Shown: positions 2,170-22,541 of the stretch, piece after piece
Layout: each line of letters opens with the position of its first letter
Numbering within the stretch: position 1 is the stretch's first letter
Assembly: GCA_002825515.1 (NCBI GenBank)
Contig: PJET01000118.1
Coordinates: forward strand, 1 to 27,122
DNA from: Candidatus Thorarchaeota archaeon MP11T_1
GTDB lineage: Archaea; Asgardarchaeota; Thorarchaeia; Thorarchaeales; Thorarchaeaceae
Length of the DNA: 27,122 bases
Direction: 5' to 3'
Position numbers and translations under genes: made by a program
The notes under the pieces: generated by a model
Database searches by the model: none
Seen by the model: only the letters and a program-made list of their open reading frames with translations
Told to the model about the DNA's origin: nothing

Positions 2170-2532
2170 ATGGCTAGTTTATACATAATAGGTCAATGGG
2201 GTCCTGAGGCTGCTGAGCGCTGCTATGGTCCTTTTGTTACGGGTACCACTGCACAAGCACAGGATGTAGAAGCCAACATATTTCTAATGATGGATGCGGT
2301 TATGCTGATGAAGAAAGGGGCAGCTGAGAAGGTAAAAGCTCCTGGTTTTCCACCACTTCCAGATTTGATTGACGCATTTCTTGAAGCAGGCGGAAAAATT
2401 CAAGTCTGCTCAAACTCTGTAGAGTTCAGAGGAATCGGCCAAGAAGACCTTCGAGACCCAAGAATCGAAATTGCTGGTGCAGCCACCATGGTCGATGAAG
2501 TTCTTAACCATGATAGGACTATGACATTCTAG
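2170..2532 (+). CDS. DsrE/DsrF-like family protein
   Basis: A 120-residue soluble alpha/beta protein of DsrE-fold length. Visible family features are an opening beta strand (LYIIGQWG), a helix with repeated MMDAVMLMKKGAAE, a loop rich in Pro (PGFPPLPDL), and then GGKIQVCSNS with Cys80 at the place where DsrE-like proteins carry their sulfur-handling cysteine. The C-terminal AATMVDEVLNHDRTMTF is the usual closing helix and strand. Cys18 is a second cysteine. GGGAGATGA (2155-2163) lies between the upstream stop and this ATG. DsrE-fold proteins receive and pass persulfide sulfur, often with TusA; one TusA-like gene is 1.3 kb upstream. Whether this one is redox-active is inferred from Cys80. Confidence 0.8.
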   Translation: MASLYIIGQWGPEAAERCYGPFVTGTTAQAQDVEANIFLMMDAVMLMKKGAAEKVKAPGFPPLPDLIDAFLEAGGKIQVCSNSVEFRGIGQEDLRDPRIEIAGAATMVDEVLNHDRTMTF

Positions 2533-2592: not shown

Positions 2593-4371
2593 TTATGCTA
2601 AATCAGGATAGCAATTCGTCATGAGCAAATTCATGACCGAGCTGCGAATAGAGCTCTCTGAAATGAAACCTGTAAGTTCTTGATCACATATCTTCAGATA
2701 AGGCAACATAGGCAGGTCATCTGCTGTCACTTCGACTCCTGGATCATCGACATTTATAGTATCCACCATGCTTTGAGGCACTCCCAGGGAATCAAGTACA
2801 GTAGTCAAGATTTCCATTGCAGGATCACAGAAAACGCAATGATTTGATTTGTAAAAGATGATACAGGTATTTCGTCCACACTTTAGTTCGGGTGCTTCTA
2901 TCCAGAGCGGGAGCATTAAAACAAAACAAGCTCCTTGAGAATAGTCTCCTTTTACGCGATCTTCTACCCGAATCTTCCCTCCAATGTTCTTGACTATCCT
3001 ATCAACGAGTGTAAGTCCCAGTCCTCGACCGACAATTTGGTCATCTGGACTTCCTGTTCTTCGGAAAATGAATTCTTTAGCACTATCGGGAACTCCAGGT
3101 CCATGATCTAGGAATTCGATACGAACCATCTTCACAGCTTCGACAATTTCAGCATTAACCTCAACAACTATAGTATCTTTCTCATCAAATGTCATTGCAT
3201 TATGGAGGATGTTAAAACAAACCTGCTCAAGATATTGATGTCCTGCTACCTCAAACTTCCCTTTTTCGATATTGCTATTGAACTCAAGCTTTTTCCATGG
3301 GAAGTCAGCACGTACCAAACTTAAAGCGGATTGCAGGTAGTCATAGAAATCAACTTTGGTTCTAGTAGGGGGTTCATTCGCTAATCGGAATAATGAACGT
3401 AGATTGGCAACCATCCGAGCTGCTCGTCGTACATTCCAGCTAGATTCATGCAATAATGGTCGATATTGCTCAGGAATATCACTAGAACTCTCTAGAAGTC
3501 CTGTAGAAAAGAGAAGACTTTGATTCACATTGTTTAGATCATGAGTCATCACTTCGAGATACAAGTTAGCTCTGTCGCTTTCAATCTGTTCTCTCGCTTC
3601 AGCATTCTTCCGACGGTCAATATCTAGTGCCATAAGAGCAATTGTTGAAGACTGGTCAGGATACTCGAGTAAGTTGGCTGTGACACTCACCCAAGTTGAA
3701 CGACCATCGGCTGTCTTCAACTGCAACTCAAAATCTTCTACATTCTTTCCATTAGCCGCTTCTGATAACATCTGTGAAACTATCTCTTTTCCAATTCCAT
3801 TTGGAAGGAATGAAGTGAAATTTCTCCGCAGAAGGTCTTCTTCTTTATATCCAAGCAAACTTGTTGCAGCTCTATTTACCTGCAAAACATTTCCTATCAA
3901 ACTTAATGAGAAATATGCAATTGGCGATGAATCAAACAATGCTCTGTATCTACTCTCTGATGCATCAATTGCGGCTTCAAGTTCAACCTGCCGAGTCACA
4001 TCTCTAACAATCCCCATAATAGCAGGTTTGCGAGAAAGCGCAAAATCAGATGTGGTCATCTCAACATGCACTATGCTTCCATCTTTTTTTAGAAATCGTG
4101 TTCTAAATGCGGGTCTACCACTTTGGCCCCAATTCTGACCTTCTTGAACCTCCAAGAATTCGTGCGCTGTAGTTGGTTCTAATAAATCAGTCAATAGTTT
4201 ACCTTCAATACTGGCAAAATCGTACCCCATCATTTCGAGAAATGCAGGATTTGCCATTATGATTCGTTCATCCTGTAGGATGACAATACCATCATTCGCC
4301 AACATGACCATACCGAAGTATTCGTCTTCAAGGTTGGTGGCATTTTTGTTGTTTTGACCCTGCAAGTCCAT
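2593..4371 (-). CDS. PAS-PAS histidine kinase fused to C-terminal thioredoxin-fold domain
   Basis: A 592-residue soluble protein without membrane helices. The order is: PAS at ~18-130 ending in a typical GIVRDVTRQ; PAS at ~138-255; a DHp helix with THDLNNVNQ, His277 being the expected phospho-acceptor; and a HATPase domain with N-box NILHNA (Asn391), DHGPG (422-426) and GRGLGL (448-453). The last ~95 residues (500-592) open with CIIFYKSNHCVFC: a beta strand then a CxxC (Cys512, Cys515), followed by a helix, a VDDPGV turn and MLPYLKI, which has the pre-strand cis-Pro expected of a thioredoxin or glutaredoxin fold. This suggests a cytoplasmic sensor whose output or input is tied to thiol redox state; that role is inference. 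It is divergent from the metal-export operon and convergent with the DsrE gene. A close paralogue lies at 20796-22541. AGGCGG sits close before the ATG. Confidence 0.85.
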   Translation of the reverse strand: MDLQGQNNKNATNLEDEYFGMVMLANDGIVILQDERIIMANPAFLEMMGYDFASIEGKLLTDLLEPTTAHEFLEVQEGQNWGQSGRPAFRTRFLKKDGSIVHVEMTTSDFALSRKPAIMGIVRDVTRQVELEAAIDASESRYRALFDSSPIAYFSLSLIGNVLQVNRAATSLLGYKEEDLLRRNFTSFLPNGIGKEIVSQMLSEAANGKNVEDFELQLKTADGRSTWVSVTANLLEYPDQSSTIALMALDIDRRKNAEAREQIESDRANLYLEVMTHDLNNVNQSLLFSTGLLESSSDIPEQYRPLLHESSWNVRRAARMVANLRSLFRLANEPPTRTKVDFYDYLQSALSLVRADFPWKKLEFNSNIEKGKFEVAGHQYLEQVCFNILHNAMTFDEKDTIVVEVNAEIVEAVKMVRIEFLDHGPGVPDSAKEFIFRRTGSPDDQIVGRGLGLTLVDRIVKNIGGKIRVEDRVKGDYSQGACFVLMLPLWIEAPELKCGRNTCIIFYKSNHCVFCDPAMEILTTVLDSLGVPQSMVDTINVDDPGVEVTADDLPMLPYLKICDQELTGFISESSIRSSVMNLLMTNCYPDLA

Positions 4372-4444
4372 TTCCGCCTAGCAATTTCTAGAGTCACTGA
4401 ATCTGCTCTCACGCTATTTATGAGTCCAGTCTATTCCAATTATA

Positions 4445-4528
4445 GATTACTTGTGTAAATCCACCTAAAGAATAGAATATGTAATCACCTGAATCTTTAT
4501 ATTTGATTACTTGAGCAAATATTCAAAT
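4445..4528 (+). promoter_or_regulatory. Operator-like repeats and TATA box of the arsR-ATPase operon
   Basis: CTTTATATTT (4495-4504) is a clear archaeal TATA element; transcription would begin near 4527. An imperfect inverted repeat spans 4501-4528 (ATTTGA and TCAAAT as outer arms, 11 of 14 paired positions), overlapping the TATA box and the predicted start. This resembles the TCAAATA/TATTTGA-type operators of CadC-like ArsR repressors. Its left arm (GATTACTTGAGCAAAT, 4505-4520) recurs at 4445-4460 with 14 of 16 matches, exactly 60 bases upstream, suggesting a second binding site. The arrangement predicts repression by blocking TBP and polymerase; the binding protein is inferred to be the adjacent ArsR. 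Confidence 0.55.
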
Positions 4529-4540
4529 AAGGTGACGTTG

Positions 4541-4864
4541 ATGGCTACCAAAAAAAATGCTCATGGTGGAATTGACTTTAAAGATGAAGAGTTGGATGAG
4601 GTCATTAGGATATTCAAGACTCTATCAGATCCATCAAGAGTACGTATTTTAACAACGCTTAGTCAACAAGAGAGTCTTCCTGTTGGTGAGATAGCAGAAA
4701 GATTAGAGATGAAGATAAGCAGTGTAAGCCATCAACTTAGTACGCTGAAGATGCTAGGATTTGTTAAAAACCATAGAGAAGGCCAACACGTTTACTATAG
4801 TCTAGATGACGACTGCATTACTGATATTATGATGAGGGCTAGAGACCATGTCACAGGTAGGTGA
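4541..4864 (+). CDS. ArsR/SmtB-family metal-responsive transcriptional repressor
   Basis: A 107-residue winged-helix protein. The ATG at 4541 is preferred over an in-frame TTG at 4511 because GGTGA (4531-4535) is correctly spaced and the TTG lies inside the operator and ahead of the likely transcript start. The sequence has FKTLSDPSRVRIL (helix before the HTH), PVGEIAERLEMKISSVSHQLSTLK (HTH, recognition helix) and a beta-wing ending in QHVYYSLDDD. The alpha-3 cysteine motif of ArsR/CadC (ELCVCD) is absent. In the alpha-5 region the CzrA/SmtB Asp-x-His pair appears as Asp90-x-Cys92, with Asp102/His103 further along, so the metal site is altered. It overlaps the ATPase gene by 17 bases, and the pair is probably autoregulated and induced by metal. 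Confidence 0.9.
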   Translation: MATKKNAHGGIDFKDEELDEVIRIFKTLSDPSRVRILTTLSQQESLPVGEIAERLEMKISSVSHQLSTLKMLGFVKNHREGQHVYYSLDDDCITDIMMRARDHVTGR

Positions 4865-6758
4865 AACAACCTGCACAACCTGTGCAGCTCCAATAGTTCA
4901 AGAAAATCCCAAATCAAAACGCTACAAGTACAGAATGGCGGCATTATCAGGCTCAATGCTAACTTTGGGAATCGTCCTTGAGATTCTTGGGTTTGACATT
5001 CTCATTATATACATTACATTTGTTGTTGCAATGTTATCTGCTGGACAATTCATAATCCCACGAGGAGTCAAGGGGCTAGTAAAACTTAGACTAGATATGC
5101 ATTTTCTCATGTCATCAGCAGCAATTGGTGCTTTCATTATTGGTGCTCCTGCTGAAGGCGCAGCTGTAATGTTTCTCTTCTTTATCTCAATGCTTCTTGA
5201 AGAGAGAGCTGAAGACCAAGTGAGAAGAGAACTCCGAGAGCTAATAGAATTGGAACCTCCCACTGCAACCATCAGGGTCAAGGAATCGGAAGCTTGTATG
5301 CCAACATCCGAGGTCAGAAGAGGAGACATTCTTATCATCCGTCCTGGTTCCAGAATTAGTCTCGATGGTTATGTTGTTAATGGTGAAACCTCAGTCAATC
5401 AAGCACCTATAACTGGTGAGTCTCATCCAGTAGCTAAAACAATTGGAGATCAGGTATACGCGGGAACAATCAATCAGGAAGGATACATCGAGGTCGAGGT
5501 CACCTCAGAATCAAATGACACAGTACTTTCGAGAATAGTGGAATTGGTCAATGAAGCTAAAAACAAGAAAGCTCCAACAGAGAGACTGATTTCACGCTTC
5601 TCTCAAAAATACACACCAATTATGGTTACACTAACAATTCTCCTTGGGCTAACTTCACTCTATCTTGGATCTTCAATTACTGAGGCAATATACCGAGCTT
5701 TAACGCTGCTTGTAATTAGTTGTCCCTGTGCTTTTGTGGTGTCAATTCCAGTTAGCATGGTTTCTTCTATTGCTGGTTCTGCCAGAGATGGTGTGCTTGT
5801 CAAAGGAGGAATCCACATTGAACAGGTAAGTAAAACAAAAAGCGTAGCATTTGATAAAACTGGAACACTCACTGAAGGAGAACTTGCAGTCACGGAGGTT
5901 TGCCTTCACAATAATTATTCAAAATCTGATGTATTGTCAGCTGCAGCTTCACTTGAACAGCGATCTGAACATCCTATCGCAAAAGCTTTGGTAGCAGCTA
6001 TCGAGAAAGATGGAATCCAGTTGTATGAAACGGAAAGGTTTGTTGCTATTCCGGGAAGAGGCCTCGAAGGTCAAGTTGGTGAAACCACATATCTTGTTGG
6101 AAATAGAAGACTACTTACGGAACAAAGAATTGAGTTGGATACGCTTACAGAGCATAATTGCGGCGTGGGCACCATGGTGTATGTTGCCCAAAACAACGAA
6201 CACCTCGGTACAATTATTTTGGCAGATAGACTTAGAATTGGGGCAAGTGACGCAATTCGTGAATTGAAAGAGATGAATATTAACACAATAATGCTTACTG
6301 GAGACAGTGAAATTGTAGCTAAAGAAATAGCACAAGAAGTCGGTATCGATCGATATTTTGCTGAGCTTCTTCCTGAAGAGAAAGTTAAGGCAATAAAGGA
6401 AATCTCAACTTCTGGTTCATCGATAATGGTTGGAGATGGAATAAATGATGCACCTGCTTTAGCCGCAGCAAATGTCGGAATTGCCATGGGTGCAGTTTCT
6501 TCAGATACAGCTCTTGAAACTGCAGACATAGCATTAATGCAGCAAGATTTGAGAAAGATTCCAGCTTTGATAAAGAAAGCAAAAAAGACAATGTCAATTG
6601 TTCGTCAGAACATTGCAATATCCATATCTGTAAAATTGCTTGTTGGAATTCTTGCAGCCTTAGGTCTCGTTAACCTTTGGTTTGCAATAGGTATCGGAGA
6701 CATGGGTTTGACTTTTGCAGTCATCGCGAATGCTCTAAGACTTGTAAGAAAACAGTAG
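4848..6758 (+). CDS. Heavy-metal P1B-type ATPase, Zn/Cd/Pb exporter type
   Basis: A 636-residue metal-translocating ATPase. Visible motifs: TGES (189-192, actuator), CPC (292-294, membrane metal site), DKTGT with phospho-acceptor Asp336, the HP dipeptide of SEHPIAKAL (375-376), the GDGINDAP hinge (from 529), and GIGDMGLT in the last helix with Asp618. CPC plus that last-helix Asp is the signature of the ZntA/CadA (P1B-2) group, which exports Zn2+, Cd2+ or Pb2+; Cu pumps lack the Asp. No HMA domain precedes the membrane part. Instead a short N-terminal tail carries CTTC (Cys9, Cys12), perhaps a minimal metal-docking site. It overlaps the arsR stop by 17 bases (ATG 4848), implying translational coupling and metal-induced expression. 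Confidence 0.93.
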   Translation: MSQVGETTCTTCAAPIVQENPKSKRYKYRMAALSGSMLTLGIVLEILGFDILIIYITFVVAMLSAGQFIIPRGVKGLVKLRLDMHFLMSSAAIGAFIIGAPAEGAAVMFLFFISMLLEERAEDQVRRELRELIELEPPTATIRVKESEACMPTSEVRRGDILIIRPGSRISLDGYVVNGETSVNQAPITGESHPVAKTIGDQVYAGTINQEGYIEVEVTSESNDTVLSRIVELVNEAKNKKAPTERLISRFSQKYTPIMVTLTILLGLTSLYLGSSITEAIYRALTLLVISCPCAFVVSIPVSMVSSIAGSARDGVLVKGGIHIEQVSKTKSVAFDKTGTLTEGELAVTEVCLHNNYSKSDVLSAAASLEQRSEHPIAKALVAAIEKDGIQLYETERFVAIPGRGLEGQVGETTYLVGNRRLLTEQRIELDTLTEHNCGVGTMVYVAQNNEHLGTIILADRLRIGASDAIRELKEMNINTIMLTGDSEIVAKEIAQEVGIDRYFAELLPEEKVKAIKEISTSGSSIMVGDGINDAPALAAANVGIAMGAVSSDTALETADIALMQQDLRKIPALIKKAKKTMSIVRQNIAISISVKLLVGILAALGLVNLWFAIGIGDMGLTFAVIANALRLVRKQ

Positions 6759-10078: not shown

Positions 10079-10200
10079 ATTAACCCTACTCCCGGATATT
10101 TAGTTGGAAATGTTCGATTTGCACGAGAAAACCTATTACCATCGATTCATTAAGGATACTGTTTGGGTATACAATGAGTGCCTTTTAGGGAGTGGTTAGG

Positions 10201-10809
10201 TTGGTAATTCGAGTCCTACTCGTAGATGATGATGTTGAACTTCTTGATATTGCTAGAATATTGCTCCAGCAGACAGATCCTGATTTGGAAATTGTTGCAT
10301 CTTCTTCCGTGAAAGATGCACTGGAGAAATTAGAAAATGAGGAATTTGATGTCGTAATATCTGATTATCTGATGCCAGATTCATCTGGTTTGGATATGTT
10401 GGAGGCTCTTCGTGCAGGAGGTGACGATATTGGATTTGTTATCTGGACAGGGCACTCAAAAGAAGACATTGTCATAAAATCACTTAATCTTGGGGCAGAT
10501 TATTACATTCTAAAGAATGAAAATTATCGTGAGCAGTTTTCAGCCATTCGAGATATCATACGAAGTGTATCAAAAAAGAAGTCGATTTCAAAACCGCAAA
10601 TCATCAAACAGGAAACGGTAAGCAAGTTCATCCATAAACTGTCGCATGACATCACTGGTATAGCTCACAATATAATGGGGTATGCTACGCTCTTGGAGGA
10701 GGAGAATAACCCTGAGTATATTAAAGGGATAAGCAGATTATTGATAAAAATGAGTGAACGAGTTAGAACTGCAGTTGCAGAGATTGACAGCGGAGATTTG
10801 AATGAATAA
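10201..10809 (+). CDS. Receiver-domain protein with C-terminal H-box (DHp-like) helix
   Basis: A ~202-residue protein. Residues 1-120 are a complete receiver: Asp10/Asp11 acidic pocket (LLVDDD), Asp55 phospho-acceptor (ISDYLMPDSSG), Thr83 (IWTGHS) and Lys105. After a basic linker, residues ~140-195 contain KLSHDITGIAHNIMGYATLLEEE, an H-box-like helix (His149) with a second helix ISRLLIKMSERVRTAVAEI, as in the dimerising DHp domain of histidine kinases. No ATPase domain follows; the gene simply stops. It could serve as a phosphotransfer hub or dimeric receiver with no DNA-binding output. TTG at 10201 is chosen over GTG at 10192, because GGGAGTG (10188-10194) is 6 bases ahead of the TTG but abuts or overlaps the GTG. 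It is 9 bases from convergent dinB. Confidence 0.83.
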   Translation: MVIRVLLVDDDVELLDIARILLQQTDPDLEIVASSSVKDALEKLENEEFDVVISDYLMPDSSGLDMLEALRAGGDDIGFVIWTGHSKEDIVIKSLNLGADYYILKNENYREQFSAIRDIIRSVSKKKSISKPQIIKQETVSKFIHKLSHDITGIAHNIMGYATLLEEENNPEYIKGISRLLIKMSERVRTAVAEIDSGDLNE

Positions 10810-20795: not shown

Positions 20796-22541
20796 TTAAC
20801 CAGACATGAGAAGCATTGTGGAAATTTCAACTCTCAAATCGTCCTCAGATACATAGCCTGCAAGTTGTTTGGATCCCATATAGATAGTGGGCAAAGCAGG
20901 GAGTTCGTTTTCACTGACTCCAGAGGCAGGATCATCAACATTGATGAGTTGAATAGTAGCTGGACTAATATTCATCTCCTTTAAGACCGAGTTCAATGAT
21001 TCAAGAACTGGTCCACAGAATACACAGTGATCTGATTTGTAGAACATGATTGGTGGAATTTTCAGCTCTTCCTTCCAAGCTGGCAAGAGAACGATAAATT
21101 TACTTCCTTGAGATGGATCAGAGGGGTCTTTGTCTTCTACCCATACTCTTCCGCCAAGATGCTCAATGTACCTGTCAACAACAGTTAAACCAAGACCTTT
21201 CCCAGCAAGCTGTTCCTCAGTCTCTCCAGAACGTCGAAATATCTGATCTTTATGCTCATCGGGAATTCCTGGTCCTTGGTCTAGGAATTCAATTCTAACC
21301 ATTTCGCCATCTTCAGTAGTCTCAGCATTGATGATTAGTTCAACAGTAGTGCTTGGGTCTTCACTTGCACAATAGTGGATGATGTTAAAGAAGATATACC
21401 ACATAAAAGCATGTCCAACAACATCAATTGATTGCTCAGGAATATTTGATTTGATGTTGATGGTCTTCCATTCAAAATCCCGAGTAGCTTCTCGAACAGC
21501 CTTGTTGAAGTGAGGTTGAAGTCTAGTTTCAACTTTGTCTGGAGGTGCTTGTCCCAAAGAGATCAAAACACCCATATTAGCAATCATTCTTCCAGCACTT
21601 CGGACACTCCATGCTGTTTCACTAAGAAGTCCCTTTAAACGGTCTGGCAGATCTAAAGAGATGGCAAGGTCCTCCAGCGAGAATAAAACATTCTGATTTG
21701 TCATGTTCAGGTCACTGCTCATGACTTCCATGTACAGATTTGCTCTTTCGCTCTCTTGTCTGAGTCTTTGTTCTACTCCCCGTCGAGTTGTCACATCAAA
21801 AGCAGTTAATCCGATTTCACTCACTTTCTCAGTTCCAGCAATAAGAGGACTTGAAGAGATGTTAACCCAGATAATCTTGCCATCTTTCTTTTTCATTTGA
21901 ATCTCAAGACCACTAACGCTTTTCCCTCGAATTGCTTCCCTTACAATATCTGCTCCGGGATCATATCTGGGTTCAGGGTCAGGAAGAAACTCTGAAAGCG
22001 ATTTCCCGATTATATAATCAGCTTCACATCCTAGCAGTTCTTCTCCAGCTGCATTTACTTGTTCTATAGTTCCACGTCGATTCAACGTGAAATATGCAAC
22101 AGGTGACATATCATAAAGAGTAGCGAAACGATTCTCTAGTTCCGTTACAGCTGCTTCAAGTTCCTTTTGAGAAGTGATATCCCGCACTGTAGCGATGATT
22201 GCTGGCGTTCCTTCTAATTTTATTTCAGTTGGGGTGATTTCTACATGAATGACATCGTTATTTTTTGATACAAGGCGTGTAACGAATCTAGTTGCATGTT
22301 CGCCAGTGACAAGAGCCTCAATCATATCTTGGTCCCGTCTTCGGGACATCGAATCAATTAGATCTTCAAAAGGTGTATCGATGAGTGCATTCTTGTCATA
22401 TCCAAGCATATCCGCAAATGAGGAGTTAGCGAGAATAATGTCTTCATCTTGGATGACGACAAAACCATCACGAACTACTTCCATAACTTTGTATAGCCAT
22501 GATGTTTCTCGATTCTCGTTCGTCACCCGTAACACCTGCAC
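20796..22541 (-). CDS. PAS-PAS pseudo-histidine kinase with C-terminal thioredoxin-fold domain
   Basis: A 581-residue paralogue of the kinase at 2593-4371 with the same order: PAS ~16-125, PAS ~134-255, DHp-like helix, ATPase domain and thioredoxin-fold tail (~495-581) with HCVFC (Cys506, Cys509) and ALPTIY carrying the cis-Pro. The phospho-acceptor position is Ser276 (VMSSDLNMTNQ; codon AGT at 21714-21716) instead of His, and the N-box Asn is Tyr390 (FNIIHYCAS; codon TAT at 21372-21374). DQGPG (421-425) and GKGLGL (447-452) are intact, so nucleotide may still bind without autophosphorylation. The start is uncertain: GTG at 22541, or GTGs at 22535 and 22526; an in-frame ATG four codons further up is cut off by TGA at 22542-22544. 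Confidence 0.87.
   Translation of the reverse strand: MQVLRVTNENRETSWLYKVMEVVRDGFVVIQDEDIILANSSFADMLGYDKNALIDTPFEDLIDSMSRRRDQDMIEALVTGEHATRFVTRLVSKNNDVIHVEITPTEIKLEGTPAIIATVRDITSQKELEAAVTELENRFATLYDMSPVAYFTLNRRGTIEQVNAAGEELLGCEADYIIGKSLSEFLPDPEPRYDPGADIVREAIRGKSVSGLEIQMKKKDGKIIWVNISSSPLIAGTEKVSEIGLTAFDVTTRRGVEQRLRQESERANLYMEVMSSDLNMTNQNVLFSLEDLAISLDLPDRLKGLLSETAWSVRSAGRMIANMGVLISLGQAPPDKVETRLQPHFNKAVREATRDFEWKTINIKSNIPEQSIDVVGHAFMWYIFFNIIHYCASEDPSTTVELIINAETTEDGEMVRIEFLDQGPGIPDEHKDQIFRRSGETEEQLAGKGLGLTVVDRYIEHLGGRVWVEDKDPSDPSQGSKFIVLLPAWKEELKIPPIMFYKSDHCVFCGPVLESLNSVLKEMNISPATIQLINVDDPASGVSENELPALPTIYMGSKQLAGYVSEDDLRVEISTMLLMSG

Follow-up and report, generated by a model that had tools for sequence, protein, structure and literature searches.

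To our knowledge, a C-terminal thioredoxin-fold domain is not part of the usual architecture of PAS-type sensor histidine kinases. Where thiol control of histidine kinases is known, as in ArcB and RegB, it depends on a small number of cysteines within the kinase or sensor region, and the thioredoxin-like domain of the cyanobacterial kinase SasA is not known to have a CxxC motif. Here, we describe kinase A, a histidine kinase with a C-terminal CxxC thioredoxin-fold domain encoded on a 27,122-nucleotide stretch of DNA from Candidatus Thorarchaeota archaeon MP11T_1 (contig PJET01000118.1; the whole stretch is referred to as the window), and its paralogue kinase B in the same window, which has retained the cysteine pair and lost the phospho-accepting histidine. 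The order of PAS domain, DHp hairpin and HATPase domain is the same in kinase A as in PAS-type sensor kinases (9a5d, 6ph4 and 3a0r), and the class of relatives to which kinase A belongs (class A) has the catalytic residues. The domain of SasA is N-terminal according to the title of the structure entry (1t4y), whereas the domain of kinase A is C-terminal and contains a CxxC.

The layout PAS1-PAS2-H-GHKL is common to kinase A and NifL (9qq6), which in the available part of PMC3466315 is presented as a redox-responsive protein that signals by protein contact and has FAD in PAS1 as the redox sensor; the four-domain description given there includes no thioredoxin domain. DivL of Caulobacter has a histidine kinase fold in which the phospho-accepting histidine is replaced (Tyr550), with no kinase activity, and the His-less relatives of kinase A (class B) are alike in anatomy; DivL senses a phosphorylated regulator and has no thioredoxin domain, as far as it is described in the available text of PMC4211667. 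Two-component parts and thiol-redox enzymology are also combined in other Asgard archaea, in the receiver-thioredoxin reductase fusions of Heimdallarchaeota, but these join a receiver to a thioredoxin reductase and not a kinase to a thioredoxin fold; both occurrences of thioredoxin in the available text of PMC5847659 refer to the thioredoxin reductase of response regulators. Thioredoxin is not mentioned in the passages of PMC10343646 retrieved by search terms. No description of kinases that end in a CxxC thioredoxin fold and form paired classes with and without the histidine was found in the literature searched, most subscription papers and all supplements being outside the search. The single elements have known counterparts: SasA is a kinase that includes a thioredoxin-like domain, DivL a histidine kinase fold with the histidine replaced and NifL a contact-type, kinase-like redox sensor.

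A first-pass annotation, made from the sequence alone, had described the gene for kinase A as a complete PAS-PAS-DHp-HATPase kinase followed by a CxxC domain. The open reading frame at positions 2593-4371 was confirmed and lies on the minus strand; it encodes 592 amino acids, with His277, Asn391, both glycine boxes and the motif HCVFC (Cys512 and Cys515) at the residues assigned to them; frame 1 of the plus strand is stop-rich across the same interval. The features of kinase A are as follows.

2593..4371, minus strand: kinase A, PAS-PAS-DHp-HATPase-thioredoxin fold (open reading frame, Pfam and model)
3988..4314, minus strand: PAS1, residues ~20-128 (Pfam PAS_9 at 26-126 and model)
3607..3960, minus strand: PAS2, residues ~138-255 (Pfam PAS at 141-241 and model)
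3367..3588, minus strand: DHp helical hairpin, residues ~262-335 (two long helices in the model)
3541..3543, minus strand: codon of His277, the presumed phospho-acceptor (histidine in 30 of 30 aligned class A kinases)
2902..3366, minus strand: HATPase (CA) domain, residues ~336-490 (Pfam HATPase_c at 381-489)
2596..2886, minus strand: thioredoxin-fold tail, residues ~496-592 (model and PDB matches)
2827..2838, minus strand: CVFC, residues 512-515 (alignments)

Both PAS and HATPase_c exceed their Pfam cut-offs in kinase A, and no match to HisKA was obtained at E-values up to 1. The full-length AlphaFold2 model (monomer, 35-row alignment) contains PAS1, PAS2, a helical hairpin and an ATPase domain that extends to residue ~489, and residues ~504-584 form a domain of their own; its mean predicted local distance difference test score (pLDDT) is 79, and its predicted template modelling score (pTM) of 0.45 leaves the relative positions of the domains unreadable. 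The top Foldseek matches of this model are the WalK-YycH model 9a5d, NifL 9qq6 and the LOV histidine kinase 6ph4, and ThkA 3a0r is also matched. No membrane segment is apparent in kinases A and B from Kyte-Doolittle profiles in 19-residue windows (maxima 1.2 and 1.29, respectively), and the maximum is at least 1.6 in 6 of the 50 aligned relatives described below.

The tail of kinase A modelled alone adopts a thioredoxin fold (pLDDT 82, pTM 0.75), which bears out the fold proposed in the first-pass annotation. The elements are ordered E-H-E-E-E-H; the first helix begins with the CxxC, and the third strand is preceded by Pro557, for which the cis state is assumed. The best PDB matches of the tail model are thioredoxins, with which structures of SasA and KaiB tie. 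No Pfam family model reached its cut-off in three tails, the scores being 14.3 bits for Glutaredoxin (cut-off 22.9), 14.3 bits for Glrx-like (26) and 12.2 bits for Thioredoxin (23.5), and KaiB was not listed for these tails at E-values up to 10 with the HMMER filters on. The tail cannot be put down to chance: cysteines make up 5.1% of the tail residues as compared to 0.38% of the core residues in the 50 relatives. Membership in the SasA family was considered and rejected: the thioredoxin-like domain is at the opposite end, the N-terminus is a PAS domain, and the match to SasA and KaiB structures is no better than that to thioredoxins.

Conservation of the CxxC, which likewise favours the first-pass annotation, was evident in two overlapping sets of relatives. 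For the first set, 7998 candidates were scored, and the best 120 of 542 homologues were aligned together with kinases A and B; all 120 have His277. Of these 122 sequences, 120 have a cysteine at position 512, 119 a cysteine at 515 and 119 a proline at 557; the only exceptions (P0051, P0054 and P0113) have a tail that is cut off or disrupted, and all 119 sequences with a complete tail keep the CxxC and Pro557. The second set was obtained with a model of the tail from 227 Asgard genomes, and it showed that the fusion recurs, with kinase-length matches in 41 genomes and two or more such matches in 24 of them. Of the 65 kinase-length matches listed, one of which is a partial match that ends with its contig, the sequences of 48 were read and aligned with kinases A and B; L004, with its tail cut by the contig end, was omitted. 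All 50 rows of this alignment have the CxxC and a proline at the cis-Pro position; the CxxC count is partly due to selection, since 48 rows were found via the tail model and eight had additionally passed a CxxC pattern. The class counts given below cover the rows read, with 17 kinase-length matches outside them; four kinases have a shorter N-terminus.

A query with the tail-less DHp-HATPase core is free of this selection, and it covers 12 genomes. It gave 21 loci of at least 186 bits, all 21 of which lie beside a tail match. The next match scored 162 bits, and no CxxC was present in the last 130 residues of nine His-Asp open reading frames read at eight lower-scoring loci. Thus, within the genomes searched, the tail is a mark of the family. 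A search with words from the tail retrieved 84 proteins from 94 candidates of 0.55-1.75 times the length, of which 83 cover most of the tail and one (P0122) its start only; the named members are Thorarchaeota, Promethearchaeota or Sifarchaeia.

Stand-alone relatives of the tail, ~100-160 amino acids in length, are present in 37 of the 227 genomes (at least 44 bits), and both kinds are present in 33. Eight of the stand-alone relatives, mostly of ~110-130 amino acids, are rich in cysteines with an extra CGRCxC or CGKCxC start and occur in the same genomes as the kinases. In three genomes, one stand-alone relative adjoins a gene for a pyridoxal phosphate (PLP) enzyme of the methionine gamma-lyase/cystathionine gamma-synthase kind; the one such protein tested scored below its equivalog cut-offs.

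A second kinase of the window, absent from the first-pass annotation of kinase A, has the same tail.

20796..22541, minus strand: kinase B, 581 amino acids, paralogue with the same tail (alignment)
20799..21053, minus strand: predicted thioredoxin-fold tail of kinase B, with CVFC at residues 506-509 (alignment)

Kinase B is 39% identical to kinase A over 575 aligned residues, with a serine at the position of the phospho-accepting histidine, a tyrosine at that of the N-box asparagine and the CVFC retained. A tree of the DHp-HATPase region of the 50 kinases was built with the histidine column excluded and five tail-less kinases as the outgroup. The histidine is retained in 30 rows (class A) and lost in 20 (class B), where it is replaced by serine (13), glutamine (4), lysine (1), asparagine (1) or arginine (1). 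The best tree has two changes to the His-less state, a single change being also possible. Class B is known solely from the genome searches; the listed homologues all have His277.

In class A, His277, Asn391, Cys498, Cys503, Cys512, Cys515, Pro557, Cys562 and Cys587 are each present in 30 of 30 rows, as are the key glycines of the two glycine boxes except Gly424 (29 of 30); one class A protein of the larger homologue set (P0040) has a phenylalanine at position 503. Since the histidine, the N-box asparagine and the key glycines of both boxes are kept, kinase activity is expected of class A. All 20 class B rows have the CxxC and Pro557, 11 have the N-box asparagine and 5 the four further cysteines, and the predicted anatomy is of the DivL type, a histidine kinase fold with the phospho-accepting histidine replaced in all 20 rows. 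In 12 genomes or contigs that contain both classes, conservation is lower for the ATPase domain than for the thioredoxin domain in 57 of the 66 class B pairs versus 39 of the 66 class A pairs; the difference, drawn from non-independent pairs, is a hint only.

The long reading frames matched by the tail model at 14 loci in other Asgard genomes represent a distinct fusion with the order PAS-thioredoxin-PAS-HATPase. In both of the two such proteins tested, Pfam identified PAS, thioredoxin (above the cut-off), PAS and HATPase_c. A homologue search gave 44 proteins of this kind, the named ones of which belong to Candidatus Heimdallarchaeota or the Asgard group and one to Thorarchaeota; among the 227 genomes, nine contain the fusion (at least 189 bits; next match 71 bits). 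The column matched to the phospho-accepting histidine, identified as the H box by reading of the motif, holds threonine in 35 of the 44 proteins, serine in 4, asparagine in 4 and lysine in 1, and histidine in none. The first CxxC cysteine is present in 44, the second in 43 and the N-box asparagine in 44; as the proteins were found with a thioredoxin query, the CxxC count is subject to selection, and the histidine count is free of it. The histidine is thus missing in all Heimdallarchaeota-type fusion proteins and in the class B part of the tail family. As judged from domain order in the sequences, a thioredoxin domain has been joined to a histidine kinase-like chassis at two different places, independently. 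A third pairing, in which a CxxC thioredoxin-fold domain is followed by V4R domains, was seen at eight loci in other Asgard genomes, by Pfam for one of them and by eye for the others.

The following genes of the window lie in the neighbourhood of kinase A.

4511..4864, plus strand: ArsR/SmtB-type regulator, divergent to kinase A (NCBIfam HTH_metalloreg above cut-off)
4848..6758, plus strand: heavy-metal P1B-ATPase of the cadmium family (model above cut-off)
2170..2532, plus strand: DsrE-family gene, convergent with kinase A (Pfam DsrE above cut-off)
10192..10809, plus strand: receiver with a His-bearing DHp-like helix (SHD) and no ATPase domain (Response_reg above, HisKA below cut-off)

The ATPase scored 489.6 bits with the cadmium-family model (cut-off 313.5) and narrowly missed the copper model; the regulator scored 85.7 bits with the ArsR/SmtB model (cut-off 55). 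Outside the window, an ArsR or P1B-ATPase gene is divergent within 3.5 kb upstream at 23 of 29 class A loci, one of the other six having no upstream sequence, and at none of 19 class B loci, one of which has 196 upstream bases only. A DsrE relative is convergent downstream at 17 and an LLM-class oxidoreductase lies in the same direction at 10 of the 29 class A loci, and a TrmO relative is found downstream at 9 of the 19 class B loci. Genes for an ABC transporter, SfsA and DinB are often retained alongside, so part of the neighbourhood may be inherited gene order. The receiver-DHp protein is kept near kinase A in several relatives, at full length in six other aligned loci (two from the same genome) and in partial or different form elsewhere.

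We infer that kinase A functions as a soluble PAS kinase, presumably a dimer, in which the C-terminal domain acts as a dithiol switch. Oxidation or a mixed disulfide at Cys512/Cys515, perhaps with the four further class A cysteines, would alter the packing of the tail on the core, and the altered packing would gate autophosphorylation of His277. The phosphate would then pass to a response regulator, possibly the receiver-DHp protein at 10192-10809, the choice of which is a guess. Kinase B, a paralogue predicted to have lost phosphotransfer and to have kept PAS, ATPase-fold and dithiol modules, would most likely be a His-less redox partner, alone or as a heterodimer with kinase A, and class B could work by protein contact, in analogy to NifL. 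A CxxC and a conserved proline in a thioredoxin fold argue for thiol chemistry rather than docking alone, and loss of the histidine with retention of the CxxC argues for a thiol function independent of phosphotransfer. That the His-less sister protein has kept the cysteine pair suggests a role for thiol chemistry in signalling by these proteins. The first-pass annotation had offered thiol control of kinase activity, or recruitment of a redox partner, as the function; the fold and the conserved CxxC stand, but control of kinase activity is too narrow as a general statement, since both class B and the Heimdallarchaeota-type fusion retain the dithiol but have lost the phospho-accepting histidine, so that control of autophosphorylation within the same chain cannot be the only role of the domain there. 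The explanation we favour is a dithiol switch gating the class A kinase dimer, with class B as its His-less redox relative, and the chances of its being right or wrong are about evenly balanced. Several points weigh against it. The tail is weak by sequence, with a best PDB profile match at E 0.034 and a lyase as the best single-sequence match at E 0.043, and only one Foldseek match of the tail has an E-value of at most 0.001. The full-length model supports no contact between tail and core, thioredoxin is able to bind response regulators without its cysteines according to the available text of PMC9584953, and the metal-gene neighbourhood of class A suits a metal sensor equally.

A broader proposal, tentative and to us rather less probable, is that these proteins include redox pseudokinases. 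The histidine kinase chassis would have been converted at least twice, in the Thorarchaeia-type class B and in the Heimdallarchaeota-type PAS-thioredoxin-PAS-HATPase proteins, with thiol-disulfide exchange by the built-in thioredoxin domain replacing phosphotransfer as the signal and class A carrying both. An alternative, metal sensing, draws on the four further class A tail cysteines and the adjoining metal-efflux genes. The six tail cysteines, present in all 30 class A rows, would serve as ligands of a thiophilic metal (Zn, Cd, Cu or As) on a thioredoxin fold that is mainly a scaffold, and kinase A would be tied to the divergent ArsR/P1B-ATPase genes, as found at most class A loci and identified above the cut-offs as a cadmium-family ATPase and an ArsR/SmtB regulator. 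However, 15 of the 20 class B rows have the CxxC only and none of the 19 class B loci outside the window has these neighbours, P0040 has replaced Cys503, and the co-retained ABC-transporter, SfsA and DinB genes indicate that part of the association may be inherited synteny; we consider a metal sensor unlikely, though worth keeping in view. A docking domain as in SasA, recruiting a response regulator or another partner by a thioredoxin-like contact surface with no thiol chemistry, would not by itself demand the invariant CxxC and cis-Pro position of the 50 rows, and is improbable. The reverse direction of signalling, where a thiol oxidoreductase built into the chain acts on target proteins under the control of PAS and ATP state, would agree with the loss of the histidine and retention of the CxxC in class B and the Heimdallarchaeota-type proteins, and with the more frequent divergence of the ATPase domain among the non-independent class B pairs. 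The phosphotransfer residues in all 30 class A rows speak against it, no substrate or reductase partner was identified in the analysis, and its probability is low. An artefact, whether from a CxxC that arose by chance, a frameshift or misassembly, can for practical purposes be dismissed, since a single open frame encodes the complete fusion in 119 of the 122 aligned sequences and kinase-length matches recur in 41 of the 227 genomes.

If the dithiol switch is real, a whole thioredoxin-fold domain within a kinase would tie the cellular dithiol pool directly to two-component signalling. The family would also exemplify a signalling chassis that switches its currency, the thioredoxin domain being kept where the phosphotransfer residue is gone. 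The hosts are Asgard archaea, thought to be nearest to the eukaryotes, in which oxidant and metal sensing are little known.

Two further observations concern the sequences that flank kinase A. At ten class A loci, the gene for the LLM-class (F420-type) oxidoreductase lies 56-92 bases downstream of the kinase gene, and its product is a possible operon partner. A candidate for an operator shared by kinase A and arsR comes from the intergenic region between them (4372-4510), which appears to contain an imperfect palindrome near arsR, as seen by eye in an alignment of seven loci.
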